Source of the DNA: Planctomycetota bacterium
GTDB taxonomy: Bacteria; Planctomycetota; Planctomycetia; Gemmatales; Gemmataceae
DNA length: 41,133 nucleotides
Assembly (NCBI GenBank): GCA_016873095.1
Contig: VGYC01000050.1
Coordinates: 1 to 41,133, forward strand
Direction of reading: 5' to 3'
Within the stretch, counting starts at the first letter, position 1. Every line of letters begins with the position of its first letter. The notes under the pieces are model-generated. The model made no database searches. It was given only the letters and a program-made list of their open reading frames with translations, and was not told the DNA's origin. The position numbers were made by a program, and so were the translations under genes. This document shows positions 7,771 through 39,349 of this stretch, one piece after another.

Positions 7771-7855
7771 TCACCGCTCGGCGGTTTCGTGCGCAGCATC
7801 CCGCGCGAGTTCGGCGAACGCGCGGCAACACGTGCGCGAAACCGCCGAGCGGTGA
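7771..7855. repeat. Family A inverted repeat, copy 2
   Basis: Arms 7771-7789 and 7837-7855 form a perfect 19-bp inverted repeat (core CGCTCGGCGGTTTCG) around a 47-nt spacer that itself contains CGCGCG-rich partial pairing. It sits between the RNase R stop and the next gene on the same strand. Confidence 0.9.
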
Positions 7856-10004: not shown

Positions 10005-10279
10005 TGTTTCATTGTACGCGTCCGTCCTGGACGCGTTTACGTTTCGCGTTCGGATACGGGCACGCCGGGACATTGGTTATCGTAGCCGTGGCGGCGGGCG
10101 TGCGCGAAACGAGAGCAAATGCACGAGCCTTGCCCGCGAATAACCTCGCGGGCCGTCAGGCGTTGCCGGGCCGCTTGACAACGGCCAGTCGCATGACTAC
10201 TTCATTTGCATCCGAAACCCCGCGCCGGCAACGGGTTAACAATTGCCGTCCGCCAACCGCTAGAGAGGCACGCGAACCC
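10005..10279. repeat. Intergenic hairpins and a family B half-site
   Basis: This divergent gap holds a perfect 8-bp hairpin ACGCGTCC/GGACGCGT (10016-10023 with 10029-10036), an adjoining single family B arm GTTTACGTTTCGCGTTCG (10035-10052), and a perfect 8-bp hairpin GCCCGCGA/TCGCGGGC (10132-10139 with 10146-10153). No gene is seen. The single arm looks like a broken family B element. Confidence 0.6.
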
Positions 10280-15472: not shown

Positions 15473-15533
15473 ATTCGCGACCGGATTGCGCCTGCTAAAC
15501 CAATGGCACCCCCAGACAGGCGTGGTCCAATTT

Positions 15534-15594
15534 CGCTCGGCGGTTTCGCGCACGATGTCGCGTGCGAGCCAGTGCGCGAAACCGCAAGCGAGCG
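15534..15594. repeat. Family A inverted repeat, copy 3
   Basis: Arms 15534-15553 and 15572-15594 pair through GCGGTTTCGCGCAC and CGCTCG, with a 3-nt insertion in the right arm. It sits in the 270-bp gap between convergent genes, which otherwise holds only the terminator at 15685-15717. Confidence 0.85.
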
Positions 15595-15742: not shown

Positions 15743-17818
15743 TCACTTGGCCATCGCTGTCACGATGGGCCGTTTGCCTTCGGCAGCCCCGGCCGTCGGC
15801 GGCGTGGCGGGCTTGAGACTGCTATGCGGCCCGAGCACGGCCGGCGCCGGCGGGCAGCATGGCTGGCACACCGGGATGTACACCGGGATCTGCCGGCAGA
15901 ACTTGTAGGTCACCGTGTACGGCTCCATCCGGCAGGTCGTGAGCGGCACGCAGCGGGTCACCTCGTGCGGCACCATGCGACAGGTGACGTACGGAACCTT
16001 GCACACCTTCTCCTGCGTCACGACCTTGCACTTCTTCACGGTCACCACCTGGCAGCGTTCCTCCGGCACCATCTTGCAGACCTGGTACGGCACCTTGCAC
16101 GTCCGCGTCTCCGGAACCATCTCGCACTTCTTGCGCGTTTCCATGCGGCAATGATGCTCGGGAACCATGCGGCAGACCGTGAACGGAATCTTGACGCACT
16201 TCTGCTCGGGGACCATGATGCACTTCTTGCAAGTCATCATCTTGCAATGGTGCTCCGGGATCAACCGGCAGGTCGTGTACGGAATCTTCTTGACCTTGTC
16301 CTCGCGGACCAGGTAGCACTTCTTGCAGGTCACGACCTTGCAGTGCTGCTCGGGCAGCATCTTGCAGGTGTAATGGCACACCTTGCGAACCCGTTCCTCC
16401 GGGACCATGATGCACTTCTTGCAGTTCACGATCTTGCAGTGCTGCTCGGGGACCATGCGGCACGTCGTGTAGCAGAGCCGTTTCACCTTCTCCTCGGGCA
16501 CGACATAGCAGCGGCGGTGCACGACCATCTTCGTGTGGTGCTGCGGGATCAGCTTGCAGGTGGTGCAGGCACACTTCTTGTAGGTGGTGGCCGGGATCAC
16601 CTTGCACGTGTGGTACTTCACGACATGGCTATGCTCCTTCTGGACATAGCGGACGCAGCGGACCACGCGTACCTCTTCGCGCGGCACGAAGGTCTTCTTG
16701 CAGGTCCAGTGGCCGGGCAGCTGCACCGGGCAGCACGTCACGGGGCCCGGGCAGTATCGCTGCTGGCAGGTGCACGGGTCGAACACCCACGTGCCCGGCT
16801 GGCGGCAGCACTTCTGCACGATCGGACCGGGGCAGTACACCGGCTCGCTGTGCCAGCAACCCGTTTGCACCTTGAACTTGCGCTCGGTGTAGATCGGGTG
16901 ATAGCTGTAGCTCTTCACCACGCAGGAGCGCGGCTCCAGGACCGTCTTGTAGGTCGTCATCGGCACCTGGTACACATGCGTCGTGTACTTCGGCGAGTAC
17001 GTCGTCCAGTGGACCGGGACCTTGTACTCCTGCACCTTCTGGTGGTACACGGTGTAGCGCTGCTCGCACACATGCTTCTTGTATTCCGGATGGTACGTCG
17101 TCCAGCGGTGCGGGACCTGGTAGTCCTGATACATCGGCTTGTGCACGATGTACTTGCAATCGCGCTCGTGCTTCTCGTACACCGGATGGTGCGTGGTCCA
17201 GCGGTAGAGCACCTGGTAGGTGCTGTATGCCGGCTTGTACGTGCAGTAACGGCATTCCTTGACGTGATTGATGTACTGCGTCTTGTAGGTGGTCCAGCGA
17301 ATGGGCACCTGGTACTCCTGGAACGTCGGCTTGTACACGCAGAAGCGGTGCTCGCGGTAGAACTGCTTGTACTCCGGCCGGTAGTTCGTCCAGTGCACCG
17401 GGACCTGGAATTCCTTCCAGACCGGCTTCATGCAGGTGAAGCACTGGTCGCGGAACTTGGTCTCGTAGCACGGCCGCATGACGACGTACTTCTGCACGAC
17501 ATCATGGCAGGACCACAGCGGCACGTTGATGACGTAGCGCTGCTCCTTGAAGCGTTGCTCGTAGACCGGTCGACAGACGGTCTCCTTGCAGTGTTTCATC
17601 ACGGTCTGGTAGACCGGTTTGTAGCGGATGCAGCAGCGGTCCTCGACGACCGTCTGGTAGCAAACGCGGTAGCTGATGGCGGGCATGCAACATTGTTCGG
17701 GGCTACAGCAAACGGGGGGATAGCCGCCCGCGCCGCAGTGAGCCGCCCGCACCGACTGCCCGGGGCCCGCCAGGCCGACCAGGGCAATGAGCATGGGGGT
17801 GATCTTACGCAGCCTCAT
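15743..17818 (-). CDS. YTV-type Cys/Tyr-rich envelope repeat protein
   Basis: The 691-aa protein starts with a signal peptide (1-25) and is extremely rich in Cys, Tyr, Val, Lys and His. It has two repeat regions. Residues 138-265 hold four 32-residue units with QVPxxWTTY, PxY, and YKP landmarks, plus a partial fifth. Residues 420-611 hold six units, also of exactly 32 residues, of the different pattern TCRMVPEQHC, then CKKCIMVPE. A Cys/Pro/Gly-rich linker joins them, and the tail is Pro/Ala-rich. This matches the large cysteine-rich YTV-domain proteins of planctomycetes, considered structural components of their proteinaceous envelope, probably disulfide cross-linked. The ATG at 17818 follows GGAGG. 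A terminator closes the gene at 15685-15717. Confidence 0.8.
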   Translation of the reverse strand: MRLRKITPMLIALVGLAGPGQSVRAAHCGAGGYPPVCCSPEQCCMPAISYRVCYQTVVEDRCCIRYKPVYQTVMKHCKETVCRPVYEQRFKEQRYVINVPLWSCHDVVQKYVVMRPCYETKFRDQCFTCMKPVWKEFQVPVHWTNYRPEYKQFYREHRFCVYKPTFQEYQVPIRWTTYKTQYINHVKECRYCTYKPAYSTYQVLYRWTTHHPVYEKHERDCKYIVHKPMYQDYQVPHRWTTYHPEYKKHVCEQRYTVYHQKVQEYKVPVHWTTYSPKYTTHVYQVPMTTYKTVLEPRSCVVKSYSYHPIYTERKFKVQTGCWHSEPVYCPGPIVQKCCRQPGTWVFDPCTCQQRYCPGPVTCCPVQLPGHWTCKKTFVPREEVRVVRCVRYVQKEHSHVVKYHTCKVIPATTYKKCACTTCKLIPQHHTKMVVHRRCYVVPEEKVKRLCYTTCRMVPEQHCKIVNCKKCIMVPEERVRKVCHYTCKMLPEQHCKVVTCKKCYLVREDKVKKIPYTTCRLIPEHHCKMMTCKKCIMVPEQKCVKIPFTVCRMVPEHHCRMETRKKCEMVPETRTCKVPYQVCKMVPEERCQVVTVKKCKVVTQEKVCKVPYVTCRMVPHEVTRCVPLTTCRMEPYTVTYKFCRQIPVYIPVCQPCCPPAPAVLGPHSSLKPATPPTAGAAEGKRPIVTAMAK

Positions 17819-20076: not shown

Positions 20077-21519
20077 ATGCTCGATCATGCTCCGTTTGCG
20101 GACGGCCTGCCGCATCCCAGTCCCGACGAGATCCACAAGCACGCCGCGCAGATCGTGAACTGGCTGCTCGCCGATTTCACCGCGCTGCCGCAGCGTCCGG
20201 TGGGCACAATGGCGTCGCCCGCGCAGATGCAGGCATGGCTGGGCCAGCCGTTGCCGGAGGAAGGCCAGGGGCTGGACGCCGTGCTCAAGACCTTCGGCGA
20301 ACTTGTCGCCCCCTTCGCGTTTCGCCCGAATCATCCGCGCTTCATCGCCTTCATCCCATCCGCCCCGAGCTACTATTCCATCCTGGGCGACTGGCTGTGT
20401 GCCGGCATCAACCTGTTCGCCGGCGTCTGGCTGGAAGCGGCCGGCGCCACGCAGGTCGAGCTTGTCGTGCTCGACTGGTTCAAGGAACTGCTCGGCTACC
20501 CACCCGGGGCAAGCGGCATCCTCACCGGCGGCGGCTCGGAGGCCAACCTCACGGCGCTGCTGGTGGCACGTGAGTCGCTGTCCTTCGCCGATCGTGGCCG
20601 CGCCATTCTTTACGTGAATCAGCATCGCCACTGGTCCGTGGATCGCGCGGCCAGGACCATCGGGCTACACCCCGATCAGGTGCGACCCATCCCTGCGGGG
20701 ACGGACTTTCGCGTGCATGGTTCCGCACTGGCCGAGGCAAGCACACGCGACACAGACGCTGGCAAGCTGCCGTGGGCCATGGTGGCGACTGCCGGCGCCA
20801 CCAGCACCGGCATCGTCGATGACCTCGCATCCATTGCCGACGTATGCCGGCAGCACGGACTCTGGTTTCATGTCGATGCCGCTTACGGCTGGTCCGCTTC
20901 CCTTGTCCCTGCCGGCAAGGCGCTCCTTCACGGCCTTGAACGGGCCGACTCGATCACGCTCGACCCGCACAAGTGGTTCGCCCAGACCTTCGAGGCAGGC
21001 TGCGTCCTGGTCCGCGACGGCCAACGGCTGCGCGACACGTTTGCACACAGCCCGGAGTACATGCAGGACGTTCGGCCCGCCGACGATGAGGTCAACTTCG
21101 CCGACCTGGGCCTCGCCCTGTCGCGGCGGTTTCGCGCCCTCAAGATCTGGTTCTCGATCAAGGTACTGGGCATCGGCTGGTTTCGCGCGCTGATCCAGCA
21201 CACCTGCGCACTGGCGGAGCACGGCGAACGGCTGCTCCAGCAAGCGGAATGCTTTGAACGCCTCAGCCCGCGCGCCCTCAGCATGGTTTGTTTCCGTTAC
21301 AGGCCGAAGGGCAGCCGCGGAGATACAACGGAGGAAGAGCTGGATCGCCTCAACCTGGCCCTGTGCGCCGCCGTGCGTGACAGCGGCAAGGCGTTCCTGT
21401 CCTCGACGCGCCTGAACGAGCACGTCGCCCTGCGCTTCTGCTTCGTCAACTGGCGCACCACGCCGCGCGACGTCGAGGAAATTGTCGAACTGCTGGTGTC
21501 ACTCAAAGAGAAGTTGTAG
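20077..21519 (+). CDS. PLP-dependent group II decarboxylase
   Basis: The 480-aa protein has the aromatic-L-amino-acid decarboxylase pattern: HPRFIAFIPSAPSYYSILGD, GILTGGGSEANLTALLVAR (phosphate-binding region, 147-165), a cofactor-stacking His in NQHRHWS, FHVDAAYG (D267, pairing with the pyridine nitrogen), and LDPHKWF with the Schiff-base lysine K299. It should decarboxylate an aromatic or acidic amino acid to an amine; the specific substrate cannot be read from the sequence. The start lacks a clear Shine-Dalgarno, and a small GGGTC/GACCC hairpin (20059-20075) lies just before the ATG. Next comes a family C repeat. Confidence 0.88.
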   Translation: MLDHAPFADGLPHPSPDEIHKHAAQIVNWLLADFTALPQRPVGTMASPAQMQAWLGQPLPEEGQGLDAVLKTFGELVAPFAFRPNHPRFIAFIPSAPSYYSILGDWLCAGINLFAGVWLEAAGATQVELVVLDWFKELLGYPPGASGILTGGGSEANLTALLVARESLSFADRGRAILYVNQHRHWSVDRAARTIGLHPDQVRPIPAGTDFRVHGSALAEASTRDTDAGKLPWAMVATAGATSTGIVDDLASIADVCRQHGLWFHVDAAYGWSASLVPAGKALLHGLERADSITLDPHKWFAQTFEAGCVLVRDGQRLRDTFAHSPEYMQDVRPADDEVNFADLGLALSRRFRALKIWFSIKVLGIGWFRALIQHTCALAEHGERLLQQAECFERLSPRALSMVCFRYRPKGSRGDTTEEELDRLNLALCAAVRDSGKAFLSSTRLNEHVALRFCFVNWRTTPRDVEEIVELLVSLKEKL

Positions 21520-21534
21520 CATTCGCAATACTCT

Positions 21535-21626
21535 GGGTGCCATGCCCACGGCTTTGCGTGGGCATGGATGGCAAACTGATAGTTGCAAGCGAAGCATGGC
21601 CACGCAAAGCCGTGGCCATGGCACCC
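21535..21626. repeat. Family C twin-hairpin repeat, copy 1
   Basis: Arms 21535-21567 and 21594-21626 are inverted with 3 mismatches in 33. Each arm alone is also a perfect 10-bp hairpin with loop GCTTTG/CAAAGC: CATGCCCACG with CGTGGGCATG at left, CATGGCCACG with CGTGGCCATG at right. It lies between a stop codon (21519) and the Shine-Dalgarno (about 21657) of the next gene. Confidence 0.9.
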
Positions 21627-21667
21627 ATGGCACCCGATTTCGCTCTTATTCTGACGAAGGACACGTA

Positions 21668-22819: not shown

Positions 22820-22851
22820 CGACGCTGCACGAAGCAGGTGATCGAAGTTGA

Positions 22852-22952
22852 GTGCCATGGCCACGGCTTTGCGTGGCCATGTTTACCCGGTTTCCCTCAG
22901 CTTGGTCGCGGCGTGAAGCCGTCATGCCCACGCAAAGCCGTGGGCATGGCAC
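22852..22952. repeat. Family C twin-hairpin repeat, copy 2
   Basis: Arms 22852-22881 and 22923-22952 match inverted over 28 of 30 positions. Here the left arm carries the GGCC-type hairpin (22856-22881) and the right arm the CCC-type (22923-22948), the reverse of the order in copy 1. It lies between the stop at 22819 and AAGGGAG before the next ATG. Confidence 0.9.
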
Positions 22953-22984
22953 GAAACGTTCCGCTTCGATTCAAGGGAGTCCCG

Positions 22985-32313: not shown

Positions 32314-32781
32314 TCAGCGGTGTGTTTCCTGAGATGACTGCAACGCGGCGGCGGCGCGTGCCCGCGCCTCCGGGTAGGGGGCCAGCGCCTCCAGCAGCCT
32401 GCGGCACACGTCCATGAACTCCGGCAGCTCAAAGACGTTGGGCGCAGCCGGCGCATCGTTCTCGATCGGCCGGGCGACGCCGGTCCAGCCGGGATCGCCC
32501 CGTTTCTCGCGCCCCGGACCGTGCTCGAGCCAGTCGCGGGCATGATTCTTGTAGGCATGCGCCTCGGCCAGCAGCCGGGCCTGCGCCATGGCGGCATCCA
32601 CCTGGCGCGCGAAGTCTGCGAACGACTCCGGGGCGTCGGCCGCGCGGCCCAGGCGCAGCCAGCGCCGATACTGCTTTCGCGAGACGCCCCAGGCTCGTGC
32701 CGCCACGTGGCCGTACGCCCCGGCGCGAATGCCCGAGACAATCTGGCCTGTCAACTCGGCGCTTGGAGGCGTGTCGTTCAT
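32314..32781 (-). CDS. HTH protein, terminase-small-subunit-like
   Basis: The 155-aa product begins with a helix-turn-helix pattern, ELTGQIVSGIRAGAYGHVAARAWGVSRKQYRRWLRLG (residues about 9-45), then helices containing ESFADFARQVDAAMAQARLLAEAHAYKNHARDWLEHGPG. HTH followed by an AYKNHARDWLEHGPGREK segment is characteristic of small DNA-packaging or terminase-associated proteins in planctomycete phage-like regions. No large terminase gene is adjacent in the window. It begins about 5 bp past the stop of the ATPase-GNAT gene, so the two are coupled. Function inferred from fold and context. Confidence 0.55.
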   Translation of the reverse strand: MNDTPPSAELTGQIVSGIRAGAYGHVAARAWGVSRKQYRRWLRLGRAADAPESFADFARQVDAAMAQARLLAEAHAYKNHARDWLEHGPGREKRGDPGWTGVARPIENDAPAAPNVFELPEFMDVCRRLLEALAPYPEARARAAAALQSSQETHR

Positions 32782-32785
32782 GATG

Positions 32786-33946
32786 CTACTCGAGCATGGC
32801 ACGGGACATGGTGGGCGGCAGCGCCGGGCCGACGTACTCGAAGCCGGCCGTCAGCCGCGTGGCGGCGTGCCGCAGCCGGCCTTCGCGGCCGCGCGCCATG
32901 GCCGGAACGCGATGCATCCGCCAGTGCGGCGACCGCCATCGCGCCTGGATCATCGCCGGATGCGTCGTCGTCGATAATGCCCGATAGCCCAGCCCTCGCC
33001 ACAGCGAGGCCACGAAGTCGCTGAGCGCGTTACCGATGCCGACTCCCTGATAATCCGGCAACGTCACCGTGCGATGCTCGCGCCGCCCCTTCGGCCCGGT
33101 GCCCACGAACGGCAGCCACGCGGAGAAGGCAACGGCCCGGTTTACGTTTCGCGCTCGCGCCCCCTCGTCATCGACAGGATCGACAGGATCCGCCGAACGC
33201 GAAACGCAAGCCCAGCTCGCCAGGAAGCACACCGCTCCCGGCGCCAGGGCGTGGCTCAGATAGTGATGCGGTGCGAACAGCGGCCACGCCGATGCCTGGC
33301 AGCGAACGATGTCGAGGCTGATGGGCGGCCTTCGCCGAAGCCGCCTCCGGGCAAAATGGTTCTCCGCCGGACGATACACCCAGTCCGGCTGCAACCAGTC
33401 TTCCACGTCTTCATGGCAGGTGACGGCGACGAACTGCAAGCCGCGTTGCCGCACGGTCCGCGCCACTGCCGCGCTACCCACCCGCGCCACCGTGCGGTCG
33501 ACGACGCTGGTGTATTCGTCGAAGACGACGGGCTGTCCCGGCCCCGCCGTGGCCAGCGCCAGCGCGAGCGCCACGCGAAACTGCTGGCCGGTCGACAGCA
33601 CGGCGAACGGCCGCAACCACGCCGGCGGCGCTGAGAATCCAACCGCCGACAGCAACGCGACGATGTCCTTGATCGACATCGCCGCCGGAAACAGATCGAC
33701 AACGGCCGCATGCGGTTTCGCGCTCGCCGTGTCGCAGGCCGTCTCCCCGAACCAGCGCCGGGCAATGGTCGTCTTGCCGCACCCCGACGGCCCGACGATG
33801 AGCCCGACGTTCCACGGCGACTCCGCGAGCGGCAGATTCACCTCCCATTCGACCCGGCTGCAATTCGCGGCCGGCAGGTCGAACATGCCACGCAGCTGCT
33901 GCACGCGCGGCGTGGCCGTGATCGTTGACTCAACGGATACCTTCAT
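32786..33946 (-). CDS. ABC-type ATPase fused to GNAT-like domain
   Basis: The 386-aa protein has a Walker A motif (GPSGCGKTT, 52-60), an ABC signature-like LSTGQQFR (117-124), Walker B QPVVFDEYTS (138-147) and a switch His in VTCHED. It has no transmembrane part. From about 205 a GNAT-like acetyltransferase domain follows (AVCFLASW, RAVAFSAWLPFVG, and an acetyl-CoA-loop-like YQGVGIGNALSD, 299-310). Residues 246-269 are encoded exactly by a family B dispersed repeat and interrupt the turn between two GNAT strands. Such ATPase-acetyltransferase fusions sit next to ParB-like genes in phage-like loci; the substrate is unknown. GGAGAGAG precedes the ATG. Confidence 0.75.
   Translation of the reverse strand: MKVSVESTITATPRVQQLRGMFDLPAANCSRVEWEVNLPLAESPWNVGLIVGPSGCGKTTIARRWFGETACDTASAKPHAAVVDLFPAAMSIKDIVALLSAVGFSAPPAWLRPFAVLSTGQQFRVALALALATAGPGQPVVFDEYTSVVDRTVARVGSAAVARTVRQRGLQFVAVTCHEDVEDWLQPDWVYRPAENHFARRRLRRRPPISLDIVRCQASAWPLFAPHHYLSHALAPGAVCFLASWACVSRSADPVDPVDDEGARARNVNRAVAFSAWLPFVGTGPKGRREHRTVTLPDYQGVGIGNALSDFVASLWRGLGYRALSTTTHPAMIQARWRSPHWRMHRVPAMARGREGRLRHAATRLTAGFEYVGPALPPTMSRAMLE
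33140..33211. repeat. Family B inverted repeat inside a coding sequence
   Basis: Arms GTTTACGTTTCGCGCTCG (33140-33157) and CGAACGCGAAACGCAAGC (33194-33211) pair with few mismatches; the spacer includes TCGACAGGA twice. The whole element is 72 bp, encodes 24 residues in frame, and starts and ends on codon boundaries of the ATPase-GNAT gene. Confidence 0.9.
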
Positions 33947-33972
33947 CGCTCTCTCCGGCATGATTCCGGTGC

Positions 33973-34527
33973 TCACGCCACCTTGGCCTCGCACTTGCGG
34001 CCTTCGCCCTGGAAGCGCTCCAGCAGTGCGAGCTGCTCCGGCTCGCTGCCGCACTCGATGACGATCAGGTATCGTTCCGGCAGGCCGGGCAGGTCGTCGA
34101 GCGCTTTTCTGGTCTGCCGGCCGGCTTCTTCGATCGCTTCCCAGAGTGACTTGACGGCGGCCGAGTCCTGTGCCGCGATCGTCCGCAACTCGGCGAGCGC
34201 GTCCACGTCGTAGCCGGCCATCTGCGCCAGCGGATCGATGGCCAGCAACAGCGCCCGCGCCTCGGCGTCGCTGACGTCGAGCACCTCGACCTCGACCTCG
34301 TGCTCCGGGTCCATGTCGGCGCGTAGATGGCCGTCGATCAGCTTGAGCCGGCCATCGGGCAGCTCGTACACTAGCAAACTGCGCGCGAAGCCGATCTCGT
34401 CGTAGAGATGCGCCAGCGCTTGCCGCTGCGTGTCGGAGTGCAGCCGCGGGTTCAGCTCGTGACGGACCAGCTCGCCGGCGCGGAGGCGCACATGGCGAAC
34501 GATGCGATTGCGAAGGGGCTTGGACAC
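33973..34527 (-). CDS. ParB-like nuclease-domain protein
   Basis: The 184-aa product has a ParB/Srx-type N-terminal domain: LVRHELNPRLHSDTQRQALAHLYDEIG, LPDGRLKLIDGHLRADM with the family's DGHLR motif (65-69), and VEVLDVSDAEARALLLAIDP. The rest is helical and then EYLIVIECGSEPEQ-like beta (PERYLIVIECGSE). Such proteins in phages and mobile elements are thought to have CTPase or nuclease activity and to act on DNA or as modifying partners. It lies 26 bp before the ATPase-GNAT gene on the same strand, with AGGAGA before its ATG. Confidence 0.75.
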   Translation of the reverse strand: MSKPLRNRIVRHVRLRAGELVRHELNPRLHSDTQRQALAHLYDEIGFARSLLVYELPDGRLKLIDGHLRADMDPEHEVEVEVLDVSDAEARALLLAIDPLAQMAGYDVDALAELRTIAAQDSAAVKSLWEAIEEAGRQTRKALDDLPGLPERYLIVIECGSEPEQLALLERFQGEGRKCEAKVA

Positions 34528-34547
34528 GACGTTCTCCTATTCCGGCG

Positions 34548-34600
34548 GAGCCCGAAGCGTAAGCGAGGGACACGGCCACCCTCGCTTACGCTTCGGGCTC
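34548..34600. repeat. Family F inverted repeat (CCCGAAGCGTAAGCGAGGG)
   Basis: A perfect 22-bp inverted repeat, 34548-34569 with 34579-34600, closes a 9-nt loop. It lies between the protease stop (34617) and the Shine-Dalgarno of the ParB-like gene (about 34535). The same element when read as protein gives the SPKRKRG string often seen in spurious planctomycete ORFs. Confidence 0.9.
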
Positions 34601-34616
34601 TGACGTACTGCGTCCT

Positions 34617-35309
34617 TCACTGCGTCAGCTGCGCGCTTTGCCTGGGCAGCGGCATCGCCTCTTGCTTCGGCATGTTCTTGAAGCGCGCCAGGAACGTGAG
34701 GACGGCGGCGTGGCTGACGTAGACGCCGCGGCCGTCGGGGCCGCGCTCGTAGCCCTGGACCACGCCCAGCAGCACGCGGGCGCGAACGTCGATCAGACCG
34801 CCGCCGCTGCGGCCATGCCAGGGCTTCTCGCGCGTGAACGTCGTCCAGTCGCGCGACTCGAGAATGGTGGCAACGCGTCTGGTGACCGGCCAGCGGCCGT
34901 TGTCGTAGCCGCATGACCACACGATCGGCCCCGGCTTGTGGCCGGCCAGCGCCACCGGCATAAAGTGAAACGGCCCGTGCTCGATCTCGATCAGCGACAG
35001 GTCGAGATCGTCATCCCAGCCCAGCAGCCGGGCCGTTGCCTTCTTCCGAGCCGCGTAGACCTGCACGGGAGCGTCGATGAGCAAGGGCCGCTCGCGCTCC
35101 TCCGCGGCTGGCTCGCCCCAGCCGTCGCGGAACATGTGAGCACAGCCCAGCACCCAGCTTCGCCGCGCCTCCGTGGCGATGACCGTGCCGGAAGCGCCGT
35201 GACTCCTGATGTGCACCGTCGCCAGCGCCGGATCGTCCGCCGGCGCCAGGGCATGCAACCGCGCGGCGCAGATCGCCAGACCGATGAATACCAGCGTGAG
35301 TCGCTTCAT
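34617..35309 (-). CDS. Secreted trypsin-like serine protease
   Basis: The 230-aa product has a signal peptide (1-20) and a compact trypsin/HtrA-like domain. The triad is visible: H58 in WVLGCAHMF, D103 in WDDDLDLSLIEIE and S168 in HGRSGGGLID. GASGTVIATEARR precedes the His strand as in this family. No PDZ domain follows, so it is not a classical HtrA. A secreted protease inside a phage-like block is unusual; it could be a cargo gene or could process an exported product. The ATG follows AAGGAGA. A family B repeat lies just upstream and a family F repeat just downstream. Confidence 0.8.
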   Translation of the reverse strand: MKRLTLVFIGLAICAARLHALAPADDPALATVHIRSHGASGTVIATEARRSWVLGCAHMFRDGWGEPAAEERERPLLIDAPVQVYAARKKATARLLGWDDDLDLSLIEIEHGPFHFMPVALAGHKPGPIVWSCGYDNGRWPVTRRVATILESRDWTTFTREKPWHGRSGGGLIDVRARVLLGVVQGYERGPDGRGVYVSHAAVLTFLARFKNMPKQEAMPLPRQSAQLTQ

Positions 35310-35325
35310 GGATGTCTCCTTGCCG

Positions 35326-35390
35326 GGTTTACGTTTCGCGCTCGGTGGATCGGGTCTTCGACAGCAGCCTCCGAGCGCGAAACGTAAACC
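35326..35390. repeat. Family B inverted repeat
   Basis: A perfect 20-bp inverted repeat, 35326-35345 with 35371-35390, contains GTTTACGTTTCGCGCTCG and a 25-nt loop with GGATCGGGTC. It ends 3 bp from the upstream stop codon (35394) and starts 4 bp before the protease Shine-Dalgarno. Confidence 0.92.
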
Positions 35391-35393
35391 TGG

Positions 35394-35582
35394 TCATTGC
35401 CGGTTGCCAAAATAGTGTTCCAGCTTCAGGTCGATGTGGTGGATGTAGCGTTCCAGGCTTTCGACCTTCTTCTCGATGTCGGCAACCTTGCCGACGATGC
35501 CGCAGGCAGCCAGGATGGTCGGCAGCGCGATGGCGCCAATGAACCCCGCCAGCCAGCTCTTCTTGCTTTCTGCGTTGGACAT
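35394..35582 (-). CDS. Small membrane protein, holin-like
   Basis: The 62-aa product has one hydrophobic helix (WLAGFIGAIALPTILAACGI, about 9-28) and a C-terminal amphipathic/coiled-coil helix (KVADIEKKVESLERYIHHIDLKLEH). Size and layout resemble phage holins or small membrane regulators, but no family motif is clear. GAGGAG precedes the ATG. It lies between structural-type genes and the secreted protease. Confidence 0.55.
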   Translation of the reverse strand: MSNAESKKSWLAGFIGAIALPTILAACGIVGKVADIEKKVESLERYIHHIDLKLEHYFGNRQ

Positions 35583-35598
35583 GGGAATGCTCCTCAAG

Positions 35599-35685
35599 AA
35601 AACCAGAAACTAGAAACCAGAAACTAGAAACAAAACAGCTGAAAGGTCTGAGGCGTCTGGTTTCTGGTTTCTAGTTTCTGGTTTT
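35599..35685. repeat. AGAAACC/AGAAACT-heptamer inverted repeat
   Basis: A perfect 26-bp inverted repeat, 35599-35624 with 35660-35685, is made of tandem heptamers AGAAACT and AGAAACC. The loop is 35 nt. It begins 1 bp after the upstream stop (35687) and ends a few bases before the GAGGAG of the next gene. Confidence 0.93.
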
Positions 35686-35686
35686 G

Positions 35687-36037
35687 TCACAGGTATGTTG
35701 TCGGCCAGTTGACAGCGGCGCCGGCGATGCGTTGCAGGTAGATGCGCTTGTAGTTGCCGACGCGCTCGACCCAGATGACGATGAAACGCGTGCCGTTCTG
35801 GTCCGGGACATAGACGCTGTCCTGGGAGCCGAGCAGCGACTGGGCATCGAGGCGGCCGGCGTCGCGGACATCCGTCGCTTTGGGAACGGTGAGGATGTGC
35901 GTGAACATCAGCCCGCCGCCAAGGCCCTCGCCGCGCTCCAGACCCAGGCGAAAGGCCGGCACGAGCGTGCCCGAAGCTGTCGCCGCCGGCGCCGCCGGCG
36001 GCGCCGAGCCGGACCGATAGATGGCGATGGTGGGCAT
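35687..36037 (-). CDS. Phage-block protein, paralogue 1
   Basis: The 116-aa product has a Gly/Ala-rich middle and a C-terminal beta-strand pair, QDSVYVPDQNGTRFIVIWVE and NYKRIYLQRI. The same strand pair ends the 122-aa protein at 36150-36518, so the two are tandem paralogues that diverged strongly at the N-terminus. I recognise no named family; the position after the head-tail connector suggests a small tail or capsid component. The ATG follows GGAGAG. Confidence 0.6.
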   Translation of the reverse strand: MPTIAIYRSGSAPPAAPAATASGTLVPAFRLGLERGEGLGGGLMFTHILTVPKATDVRDAGRLDAQSLLGSQDSVYVPDQNGTRFIVIWVERVGNYKRIYLQRIAGAAVNWPTTYL

Positions 36038-36046
36038 ACACTCTCC

Positions 36047-36128
36047 GATTGCAGATTGCAGATTGCAGGTTTGAGACGGCACATTGCAGACCAGCGAGAG
36101 ACGTTCTTGCTGTCGCCAATCTGCGATC
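36047..36128. repeat. TTGCAGA-heptamer repeat
   Basis: GATTGCAGATTG (36047-36058), part of a three-unit TTGCAGA tract to 36069, faces CAATCTGCGATC (36117-36128), pairing over 11 of 12 positions. A further isolated ATTGCAGA lies between. The arms are shorter and more decayed than in the other heptamer elements. It fills the gap between the two paralogues. Confidence 0.7.
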
Positions 36129-36149
36129 CGGTCACACGTTCTCCGTCGG

Positions 36150-36518
36150 TCAGGCGACGGCCGAGCCCCAGATGCGTTGCAGGTAGACACGCTTGACGTC
36201 GGCGAGGCTGCCCCAGGAGGTGCGCTCGACCCAGACGACGAAGAAGCGCGTGCCGTTGCGATCGGGAATGTAGACGCTGTCGCCATTGCCCGGGTCGTAG
36301 TTCATGCTGGCCGGCACACCGCGATCACGCACGTCCGCGTTCAGGTCCACGATCATGAGGTGGGAGCAATGCAACGCGCCGCTGCGCTCGCGTTCCTGTC
36401 CGGCCTCGAACTGTGGAATCAGCACGCACGGCACGCCGGCCACGTCCGGGGTCAGCGGCGGCAGCCGCCCGCCGCGGTAGATGTCGCAGGTGTTGTTGGC
36501 GGTCGCGGGCAGGCTCAT
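36150..36518 (-). CDS. Phage-block protein, paralogue 2
   Basis: The 122-aa product contains LIPQFEAGQERERSGALHC and ends with GDSVYIPDRNGTRFFVVWVE and VKRVYLQRIWGSAVA, matching the C-terminus of the 116-aa neighbour. Both probably fold as small beta-rich virion-type proteins; the function is unknown. GGAG precedes the ATG, and the gene starts 27 bp after the head-tail connector stop, without a repeat in that short gap. Confidence 0.6.
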   Translation of the reverse strand: MSLPATANNTCDIYRGGRLPPLTPDVAGVPCVLIPQFEAGQERERSGALHCSHLMIVDLNADVRDRGVPASMNYDPGNGDSVYIPDRNGTRFFVVWVERTSWGSLADVKRVYLQRIWGSAVA

Positions 36519-36545
36519 GAATTCTCCATTCGTGACAAGCGCCGG

Positions 36546-37415
36546 TCACACCTCGTGGCGGCGATACGGTCGCAGCAACTCGACCACGCCCGGCGGCATG
36601 GCGCCGATGATCGAGCGCGAGGCGACGCCGGGAACCGCCTCGTGCGACAGGCCGGGATCGCGCTTCGACGCCCAGAAGCAGGCGGCGACCCACTGGGCAC
36701 ACGCTTCCTGCACGTCCTCGGGCACGTGCAGGTAGCCGGCCGTGTATTGCACGCGGTAGTTGTTCACGCCGCACGACCAGCTGCCGCTGGTCATCAGCAG
36801 CCAGCCGCGCGGATCGAAGTCGTACGAGGACAGCTCGCCGACGTGGATCGTCAGCTCCGCCCAGGCCGCGCGGGCGTTGAGGGCGCCGCGCGAGGTCACG
36901 CCGTCGCCGTAGCTCGGCGGCGACCACAGGTCGAGCGCCGGCCACAGTCCGTAGTCGCCGGCAACGCTGCCGGCCACCTCCGCCGTCCAGCCGTTGCCCA
37001 GGGCTGCAATCGCCGTCGCCAGCGCCTGCAGCGTGACATGGTTCGCGTAGGTCAGGCGACTCGAGGACACGACGCCGGACGCAACGCGCACCAGCAGCAA
37101 GCAGGTGCTCTGCACGCTGATGCGCGCCTGCTGATTGGTGGCCGTGTCCGTGTTCTTCACGCGGAGCACGGTTGCCGGATGCTGGCGCACGCTCTGCACG
37201 CTGATGAGCGGGTCATTGCGGAGAAACAGCCGCAGGGCGCCGTTGCCGCTGTGCACCTCGTCGTGATCGCGGGCGACGAATTCGCGGCGGCAATGCTTCT
37301 GGACCGCCGTCGAGATGCCGGCGATGAGCGCGTCCAGCATCTGGTTCTCCGCCGCCGTCGCGGAGAGGTTGTTCAGGTTGCGGATGGCACGCTCGCGGGT
37401 GATGAGGTCGGGCAT
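36546..37415 (-). CDS. Phage head-tail connector-like protein
   Basis: The 289-aa product has N-terminal helices (ERAIRNLNNLSATAAENQMLDALIAGISTAVQ) and the strand motif CRREFVARDHDEVHSG. It ends with YTAGYLHVPEDVQEACAQWVAACF and KRDPGLSHEAVPG. This is the pattern of gp6-like head-tail connector proteins, which form the ring joining portal and tail. An inserted domain (about 90-200) makes it longer than the simplest members. No portal or capsid gene is visible upstream, so the block looks incomplete or rearranged. AGGAGT precedes the ATG. Confidence 0.7.
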   Translation of the reverse strand: MPDLITRERAIRNLNNLSATAAENQMLDALIAGISTAVQKHCRREFVARDHDEVHSGNGALRLFLRNDPLISVQSVRQHPATVLRVKNTDTATNQQARISVQSTCLLLVRVASGVVSSSRLTYANHVTLQALATAIAALGNGWTAEVAGSVAGDYGLWPALDLWSPPSYGDGVTSRGALNARAAWAELTIHVGELSSYDFDPRGWLLMTSGSWSCGVNNYRVQYTAGYLHVPEDVQEACAQWVAACFWASKRDPGLSHEAVPGVASRSIIGAMPPGVVELLRPYRRHEV

Positions 37416-37431
37416 GACAGACTCCTGTCGG

Positions 37432-37494
37432 GTTTACGTTTCGCGTTCGCGCGACCCGATCCCTGACAGGATCGCGCGAACGCGAAACGTAAAC
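37432..37494. repeat. Family B inverted repeat
   Basis: A perfect 23-bp inverted repeat, 37432-37454 with 37472-37494, has core GTTTACGTTTCGCGTTCG and a 17-nt loop containing GACCCGATCC-like sequence shared with the copy at 35326. It ends 2 bp from the upstream stop (37497). Confidence 0.93.
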
Positions 37495-37496
37495 AA

Positions 37497-37823
37497 TCAC
37501 GCGATTTCCTGTTCCAGGATCAGCTGTCCGCGCGCCAGGCTGATCTCGTTGCCGGCGTCGTAGCGGCGCAGTTCCCAGACGTAGTCCTGCGCATCGAGTG
37601 CCTGCGTGTCGGCCTTGGCGAGAGCAACCTGGCAGACGCCGCGGCCCGCGTCGCTGATGGTGATGCCGCTGCCCACCGTCTTGGTGATGCGGATCGTCCC
37701 GCCGATCGAGTCGCGCACCTGGAAGCGCATGCTCCAGCCCGTGACCTCCTGCGGCGGCGCCATGCTGAACACCAGCGTCAAATCCTGCGACCGCACGATG
37801 CGAATGGTTTGCTCGGGGGCCAT
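37497..37823 (-). CDS. Phage-type beta-rich structural protein
   Basis: The 108-aa product is beta-rich with TIRIVRSQDLTLVFSMAPP, GWSMRFQVRDSIGGTIRITK, and AQDYVWELRRYDAGNEISLARG. This is the pattern of N-terminal baseplate-upper-protein (BppU)-like domains that decorate tails. It lies upstream of the head-tail connector gene on the same strand, with GAGGAG before the ATG. The assignment is by pattern only. Confidence 0.6.
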   Translation of the reverse strand: MAPEQTIRIVRSQDLTLVFSMAPPQEVTGWSMRFQVRDSIGGTIRITKTVGSGITISDAGRGVCQVALAKADTQALDAQDYVWELRRYDAGNEISLARGQLILEQEIA

Positions 37824-37852
37824 GATCGCTCCTCATCGACACAAACAAGCGT

Positions 37853-37911
37853 CGTTGCAGCTCGCTCGGCGGTGTCGCACGCGTAGTCGCGCGCGAAACC
37901 GCGAAGCAACG
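37853..37911. repeat. Family A inverted repeat, decayed copy
   Basis: CGGTGTCGCACGCG (37870-37883) pairs with CGCGCGCGAAACCG (37888-37901) at 12 of 14 positions, and CGTTGC/GCAACG (37853-37858 with 37906-37911) pairs outside. It lies between the stop at 37917 and the Shine-Dalgarno of the next gene. Confidence 0.75.
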
Positions 37912-37916
37912 TTCCA

Positions 37917-38435
37917 TCACCCATGTCTCTGCGACACGAGGTTGAGGCGCGGCTGGTAATCCATGTTCAGGGGCAGCGTCGCCGCGTGCTGCATCGTCAG
38001 GTGCCGGCGTTGCTCGGTGGTCATGAACAGTGCCACATGACTGTCGCAGCGTGCCGACAATGCCGGCCGGTTCACCGCGTTCATCCACAGGAGCAGCCGC
38101 CTGCCGACGACGGGCATGCCCTGGCCTTCGCGGCCGGGCCTGGTGAAGAACCAGGCGCTCCGCGCCCGGCCCGGCGGCGGCACGCGATTGACGGCGCTGA
38201 TCGAACAGGGCGGCAGCCGTTCCGGATGGGGGATGGCCTCGCGGCGCGGCGGCAAGACGCTGACCCACCCGGGCGAGCGGCGCAGACGATTGACCGACAC
38301 GACGCACCGCGGCGGGATACCCCGCTGCTGCCGGCGTGGCGGCGTCGGCCAGGCCACGACGCCGCAGGTCCGCCGAAAGCGGTTCAGCCGTTCCCTGGCC
38401 TGGGTGCGGTTGCGCTGGTGGCGGTTTTGTGGCAC
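37917..38435 (-). CDS. Arg-rich protein of the phage-like block
   Basis: The 172-aa product is strongly basic (many Arg and Pro) and not similar to anything I recognise. Reality is supported by very GC-rich third codon positions and by tight coupling: a GTG start at 38435 directly follows the stop of the 38439-38888 gene, whose last codons supply GAAGAG as Shine-Dalgarno. The basic N-terminus may bind DNA. It could be a small minor virion or adaptor protein. Confidence 0.55.
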   Translation of the reverse strand: MPQNRHQRNRTQARERLNRFRRTCGVVAWPTPPRRQQRGIPPRCVVSVNRLRRSPGWVSVLPPRREAIPHPERLPPCSISAVNRVPPPGRARSAWFFTRPGREGQGMPVVGRRLLLWMNAVNRPALSARCDSHVALFMTTEQRRHLTMQHAATLPLNMDYQPRLNLVSQRHG

Positions 38436-38438
38436 GGG

Positions 38439-38888
38439 TCACTCTTCGAGATACAGGTTGATGCTGACGGTCTGGTTCTGTGCGGCCGTCACCTGGATGC
38501 CCATCTTGTTGCCGCCCTTCAGGACGATCTCCTCGCCGGGCGGGAAATACACGACCAGGCCGGTCTGCGGGTGGACCTCCCAGATCTTGAAGACGTTGCC
38601 CAGCGTCGGCTCGGCGCTGTAGGCGATCTTGCCGGTCGTCTGGATGGTCTCGCTGTCGTCCTCGTTGTTGTTGTAAAGCGTGCCGGTCGAGCCGGTGCCG
38701 TCGCTGGTGAAGCGATAGAACTGGATCTTCGCCGGCGTGTCGGTCGGACTGGTCCCCTTGAAGAAGACCTCGATGCCCTTGATCTTGACGCGATAATTCG
38801 CGGCCGCGACCACGGTGATCGGCGTCTTGGCCGTCCCCGCCGACAGCGACACCTCGCCGGACGGATAATGAAGGTTGAGGCCTGCCAT
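38439..38888 (-). CDS. Phage tail-type structural protein
   Basis: The 149-aa product is beta-rich (ANYRVKIKGIEVFFKGTSPT, IQFYRFTSDGTGSTGTLY, KIWEVHPQTGLVVYFPPGEE, NQTVSINLYLEE). This pattern is common for small structural proteins encoded near tail genes in prophages. AGGAGC precedes the ATG. It follows the truncated gene at 38960 and is coupled to the Arg-rich gene. Confidence 0.6.
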   Translation of the reverse strand: MAGLNLHYPSGEVSLSAGTAKTPITVVAAANYRVKIKGIEVFFKGTSPTDTPAKIQFYRFTSDGTGSTGTLYNNNEDDSETIQTTGKIAYSAEPTLGNVFKIWEVHPQTGLVVYFPPGEEIVLKGGNKMGIQVTAAQNQTVSINLYLEE

Positions 38889-38907
38889 GATTGCTCCTGA
38901 TGAAGAG

Positions 38908-38954
38908 TTTTCAGTTTTCAGTGTTCAGTACCAGACCGCACACTGAAAACTGAA
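38908..38954. repeat. TTTTCAG-heptamer inverted repeat
   Basis: A perfect 14-bp stem (38910-38923 with 38941-38954) lies in a tract of TTTTCAG/TGTTCAG heptamers, with a 17-nt loop. It fills the gap between the stop at 38960 and the AGGAGC of the next gene. Confidence 0.88.
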
Positions 38955-38959
38955 CACTG

Positions 38960-39349
38960 TCATGTGATGATCTGGACCACATCCGCGAGGTCGTCGTCGC
39001 TGCCTGGGGCGAATCTCGGTTTCATGCCGAGGGCGATGACGCAGGCGGGGCCGCCGGTGCTGTTGCCGGTGATGGCGCGGCCCTTGACGTAGCGCATGCC
39101 GGCCGACAGCTCGGGCGCCTTGAGGTTGATGACGATCTGCTTGTTGTCGTTGTTGGAGGCGTGGGCCGCCAGCTGCGTCGCCGCCTTGCCGCTGATGTCC
39201 GTGTAGGTGCCGCCGGAAGTCGCCGACTCCTGCAGCTTGAAGTCGATGGTCTCGGCCGCCATGTCACCCAGGAGCAGGATGAACATGACCTCTTCCCACT
39301 TCTGCAAGTGGAGAGGGAAAAAAACCATAAAAAAACCGCCAAGGTTCAT
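38960..39349 (-). CDS. Phage structural protein, probably 5'-truncated
   Basis: The C-terminal 105 residues look like a genuine virion protein: ILLLGDMAAETIDFKLQES, SGGTYTDISGKAATQLAAH, NNDNKQIVINLKAPEL, GMRYVKGRAITGNSTGGPA, and DDDLADVVQII. The N-terminus is doubtful. From about 39310 upstream the DNA becomes T-rich and low in GC, and the frame reads an unlikely FFMVFFPLHL. The ATG at 39349 gives 129 aa; the frame stays open to 39508 in sequence that belongs to the opposite-strand gene. The likely explanation is that an insertion or deletion removed the true 5' end and any upstream capsid genes. Confidence 0.55.
   Translation of the reverse strand: MNLGGFFMVFFPLHLQKWEEVMFILLLGDMAAETIDFKLQESATSGGTYTDISGKAATQLAAHASNNDNKQIVINLKAPELSAGMRYVKGRAITGNSTGGPACVIALGMKPRFAPGSDDDLADVVQIIT

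Follow-up and report, generated by a model that had tools for sequence, protein, structure and literature searches.

The window analysed here is the whole stretch of 41,133 nucleotides that makes up contig C50 of a planctomycete genome (G000; 8.36 Mb in 548 contigs, a metagenome-type assembly). Its minus strand contains a phage-like gene block (32314-39349) with terminase small subunit-like, ParB-like and head-tail adaptor genes, which houses three of the four window copies of a palindromic repeat. Within the block, the gene at 32786-33946 (minus strand) encodes an ABC/AAA-type ATPase fused to a GNAT domain and belongs to the phage family phrog_11143 (E 3.7e-85); relatives of this protein occur in 67 phage records and in at least 587 viral-contig stretches, and its nearest homologues with named records are from planctomycete metagenome genomes. 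The gene is intact as judged from its profile match, its invariant columns and its AlphaFold2 model: it retains all 57 columns that are invariant in 51 homologues, and the model has a pLDDT of 88.8. Among the matches listed by Foldseek against the PDB there were mainly ABC-type ATPases, and the GNAT half was not separately visible. Pairwise comparisons yielded dN values of about 0.19-0.26 versus dS values of about 1.0-1.1, that is, a dN/dS of about 0.2 that spans the whole divergence of the gene and not just the time since it received the insert described below. We infer that the insert-bearing protein continues to function.

One copy of the repeat lies inside this gene, at 33140-33211 (minus strand). 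As proposed in the first-pass annotation, and as coordinates and translation confirm, it is 72 nt long, it starts and ends on codon boundaries of the gene read from 33946 to 32786, and it corresponds to residues 246-269 counted from the ATG at 33946 (249-272 if counted from 33955). Read on the gene strand as GCTTGCGTTTCGCG...CGCGAAACGTAAAC, it encodes 24 residues, ACVSRSADPVDPVDDEGARARNVN, flanked by LASW and RAVAFSAW; its coincidence with codon boundaries carries no special weight. The two arms differ, one ending in GTTTAC and the other in GCTTGC, which are the ends of two subfamilies that are both present elsewhere in the genome. The copy retains 16 outer base pairs as a hairpin, predicted to be strong as RNA, and contains a CGCGAG motif. 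Some of its interior bases are peculiar to it, and the 72-nt sequence gives a single full match in the genome.

Two further copies, both near-perfect palindromes of 63 nt, are intergenic: one lies between two co-directional genes (35327-35389) and the other directly after a stop codon (37432-37494). They had been described as sharing the arms of the in-gene copy, and the arms indeed match; the coordinates of the second were also correct, but the first had been placed at 35326-35390. The fourth copy, an unpaired single arm (GTTTACGTTTCGCGTTCG; 10035-10052, plus strand), was detected in repeat and 14-mer/18-mer searches and had been missed previously. Other palindromic structures also occur in the window. 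A second family of similar style, CGCTCGGCGGTTTCGCGC and its complement, is found at 1388-1442, 7771-7855, 15513-15567 and 37842-37928; an inverted repeat, CGGCGGAGCCCGAAGCGTAAGCGAGGG / CCCTCGCTTACGCTTCGGGCTCTGACG, lies beside the ParB-like gene (34543-34605); inverted repeat pairs with the core CATGSCCACGCAAAGCCGTGGSCATG are located at 21534-21627 and 22847-22957; and a 97% inverted repeat of AAAACCAGAAACTAGAAACCAGAAACTAGA sits between phage-like genes (35599-35685). Additionally, diverged repeats spaced at 24/48/96 nt (families D1-D4) form long runs at 16017-17344, within a predicted minus-strand gene.

The repeat is dispersed throughout the genome. Its 14-mer, GTTTACGTTTCGCG, has 91 exact copies (46 forward and 45 reverse; none for a reversed-pattern control), and 18-mers with up to one mismatch number 168 (control, 0), far more than chance would give. 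From the genome stretches around each match we collected 74 elements, 44 of which form inverted pairs that measure 46-130 nt and have modal lengths of 63 and 48 nt. Family copies have sharp ends, GTTTAC or a second type, GCTTGC/GCAAGC, and mixed-arm copies are also found elsewhere in the genome; neither GTAG nor GTGG was present as a tetranucleotide at the foot of the repeat. Intergenic copies fold as near-perfect hairpins, and DNA folding z-scores ranged from -2.9 to -8.9 for the five strands tested. None of the 44 paired copies showed three or more identical flanking bases and, therefore, there is no target-site duplication, which is as expected for Y1 enzymes and led us to reject a MITE of a DDE transposon; the flanking sequence shows a weak CTT/AAG preference. 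The same 14-mer also occurs in other genomes, with 131 copies in G029, 45 in G026 and 15 in G036. The 130-nt element at L147:3008-3137 has a loop with a short tandem expansion of GATGCCCC.

Most copies lie between genes: 87 of the 90 examined were intergenic, and 64 of these were between co-directional genes, with the caution that these counts are approximate because they come from a home-made gene caller retrained on codon use. The median distance from a copy to the 3' end of the neighbouring gene was 8.5 nt, placing copies just past stop codons. Insertions that break genes would be lost, so that the surviving copies would cluster after stop codons. Only three copies were called inside genes, and the one in the window is the sole convincing case (1/90); in the other two (L138 and L292), Pfam domains begin only after the element, and these are probably start-site miscalls. 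Other stop-to-stop ORFs spanning copies were likewise discarded as in-gene insertions, as their Pfam domains, where there are any, all lie downstream of the element, and several resemble antisense shadows of genes.

Comparison with about 120 homologues, an estimate that allows for records shared between alignment sets, indicated that the repeat did enter coding DNA, as had been suggested. In 27 of the first 28 homologues aligned, two codons or thereabouts make up the turn between the two GNAT strands, and 13 further homologues have the same short turn. In the set of viral and genome loci, 82 of 88 rows share the same 21-residue segment, with the window gene and L040, a homologue from genome G029, as the two large exceptions. 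Homologues thus nearly all lack the segment, which is therefore an insertion, instead of carrying an alignable stretch of unrelated nucleotide sequence at this position. The turn in homologues consists of two codons, often CGC GAG, between TGG and a strand starting R/Q-P-V-A-F; since these two codons are replaced by 24, the net gain is of 66 nt and not 72. The proposed surface-turn location agrees with the AlphaFold2 model, which puts the inserted residues between beta-strands 242-248 and 273-283, with pLDDT below 50 for nearly all of residues 253-269. The insert is thus predicted to form a low-confidence, disordered loop in a GNAT beta-hairpin turn.

The gene in L040, which scored highest among the homologues in the first search, has its hairpin turn occupied by another insert, a copy of a different dispersed palindrome, that codes for SGVPPHPQPLSPEGRGESVA. 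The core of this insert, CCTCACCCCCAACCCCTCTCC, has 52 copies in G029 and is present in 13 of the 59 genomes searched. The two inserts have no sequence in common, and neither was found in any other aligned homologue. The genes with inserts are placed in different groups of the phylogenetic tree, and every bootstrap tree requires two changes, which indicates that the inserts arose separately. This double hit is most simply explained by a permissive turn. It is also conceivable, if rather unlikely, that the GNAT hairpin is a preferred landing site, with two unrelated families having independently entered the same two-codon turn in two genera through either favoured target DNA or an unusually permissive turn; if so, this turn would be a natural reporter for REP mobility.

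A candidate for the mobilization of the repeat is encoded on another contig (C101:20345-20929). This gene, whose product of 194 residues is a REP-associated (RAYT/TIRYT-type) Y1/HUH transposase, is bracketed by copies of the repeat at 20301 (plus strand) and 20967 (minus strand). The protein contains the motifs HVH and Y-x3-N-P and matches two profiles with scores under their curated cut-offs, NCBIfam REP_Tyr_transpos (E 1.4e-9) and Pfam Y1_Tnp (E 6e-4); a sequence search against solved structures retrieved weak matches, mostly annotated as transposases. Most homologous transposases in related genomes have variant palindromes of their own on their flanks. For instance, GTTTACGTTTAGCG lies on both sides of a related transposase gene in G012 and has 68 copies in that genome and 0-3 elsewhere. 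This locus (G012:C163:1438-1842, L181) is a RAYT-like match over only part of the query and has a TAG stop, yet its cognate repeat reaches that copy number; this mobiliser may have decayed recently. An intact related transposase in G029 is flanked by a different palindrome, though this genome contains 131 copies of GTTTACGTTTCGCG, so there the link between repeat and transposase is not one-to-one. The window genome also contains a second, distant RAYT-like gene, flanked by GTTAGCCGCGACGCGGAGTC palindromes (C245:2195-2779, L184). The first-pass annotation had argued for mobility from the presence of a copy within a gene, and this argument gains strength from the transposase bracketed by the same repeat and from the mostly cognate repeats of its relatives. 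Judging from these associations, the C101 transposase is likely the mobiliser of the GTTTACGTTTCGCG family, and we infer that it also moved the in-gene copy.

Short dispersed palindromes, mostly extragenic and often arranged as hairpin-forming inverted pairs, are characteristic of the REP sequences and REPINs associated with RAYT (TnpA-REP) transposases, with one repeat type flanking the Y1/HUH transposase gene to which it is linked (Bertels and Rainey 2011, PMC3116915). The elements described here share these properties but, unlike those, they form a planctomycete family, lack a GTAG/GTGG foot and are associated with a transposase that scores under the curated REP_Tyr_transpos cut-off. Lacking a GTAG foot, the GTTTACGTTTCGCG family falls outside the canonical GTAG REPs and is REP-like or TIR-type. 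It resembles TIRtrons, in which a RAYT-like gene (TIRYT) lies between non-GTAG inverted repeats (TIR) that are moderately abundant genome-wide (Di Nocera 2013, PMC3733652); R. baltica was named as rich in TIRYT-type genes and repeats (PMC3733652).

We consider it probable that the in-gene copy belongs to a planctomycete REP/TIR family of REPIN-like, non-autonomous repeats and that it landed in frame in the GNAT turn, most likely through mobilization in trans by the C101 transposase. Under this model, a single strand of the element would fold into a hairpin and the transposase would recognise the GTTTACGTTTCGCG arms; its tyrosine would cut, and the element would be rejoined at another site without target-site duplication. 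It would thus have entered the GNAT beta-hairpin turn of the phage-type gene in a stop-free frame, with the loss of two codons, and the inserted residues would be tolerated as a disordered loop. Entry into a surface turn, in a stop-free frame, would account for its survival. Some observations do not fit this model easily: a 6-nt loss at the target departs from the textbook picture of a Y1 insertion, the termini lack the GTAG/GTGG tag of canonical REPs, and repeat and transposase are not paired one-to-one in G029.

Because two codons were lost, the main rival is that another copy gave rise to the in-gene one through recombination or template switching, with short homology such as CGCGAG guiding the event and explaining the loss. 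The replacement of two homologue codons, the occurrence of CGCGAG both in the element and in the turn of several homologues, and arms drawn from the GTTTAC and GCTTGC subfamilies are all consistent with such an origin. However, mixed-arm copies exist elsewhere in the genome, the in-gene element has the same sharp family ends as other copies and a repeat-bracketed transposase is present in the genome, so we regard recombination as improbable. An assembly artefact, with repeats mis-joined inside the gene, would be conceivable in a genome split into so many contigs, but both flanks continue one intact gene in a single frame and the 72-nt sequence, with its own interior bases, is fully matched only once, which makes it hardly credible.

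Selection might instead have kept the hairpin or its peptide, either to regulate translation or transcription in the phage operon or through a function added to GNAT by the 24 residues. This would agree with the strong predicted RNA hairpin in an intact gene and with the finding of another insert at this turn in a second genome; nevertheless, the loop is predicted to be disordered, the other insert shares no sequence with this one and neither occurs in any other homologue, so there is very little likelihood that selection explains the insert. Lastly, an ancestral segment lost from all other homologues is ruled out by the homologue alignment and the tree, given its near-universal absence, and its DNA is moreover a high-copy repeat of the host genome.

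Palindromes inserted in frame within genes are already known, and the window provides a clean new example with a notable double hit at the same site. Intragenic, in-frame REPs have been described in several species, many of them coding for 20-30 residues (PMC3733652; Corneloup 2018, PMC6006769), including palindromes inside tnpA-REP genes (PMC6006769), and different REPs were found at about the same recB site in two Xanthomonas species (PMC3733652). Our case is likewise an in-frame palindrome inside a gene, but it differs in that the host gene is of phage type and in that the two same-site inserts come from unrelated families and different genera. The Rickettsia RPEs are also in-frame palindromic inserts at tolerated positions of protein genes; unlike the present family, with about one in 90 copies in a gene, they are best known for the copies they have in genes (PMC3733652).

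As a rule, REP-like repeats are encountered in intergenic DNA alone, a setting that makes their spread difficult to tell from shared regulation. A copy within a gene that has many insert-free homologues instead gives a directional insertion event. In all, the in-gene copy, the bracketed transposase and the second family inserted at the same site offer a planctomycete system for RAYT-driven mobility and for the protein cost of in-frame inserts.
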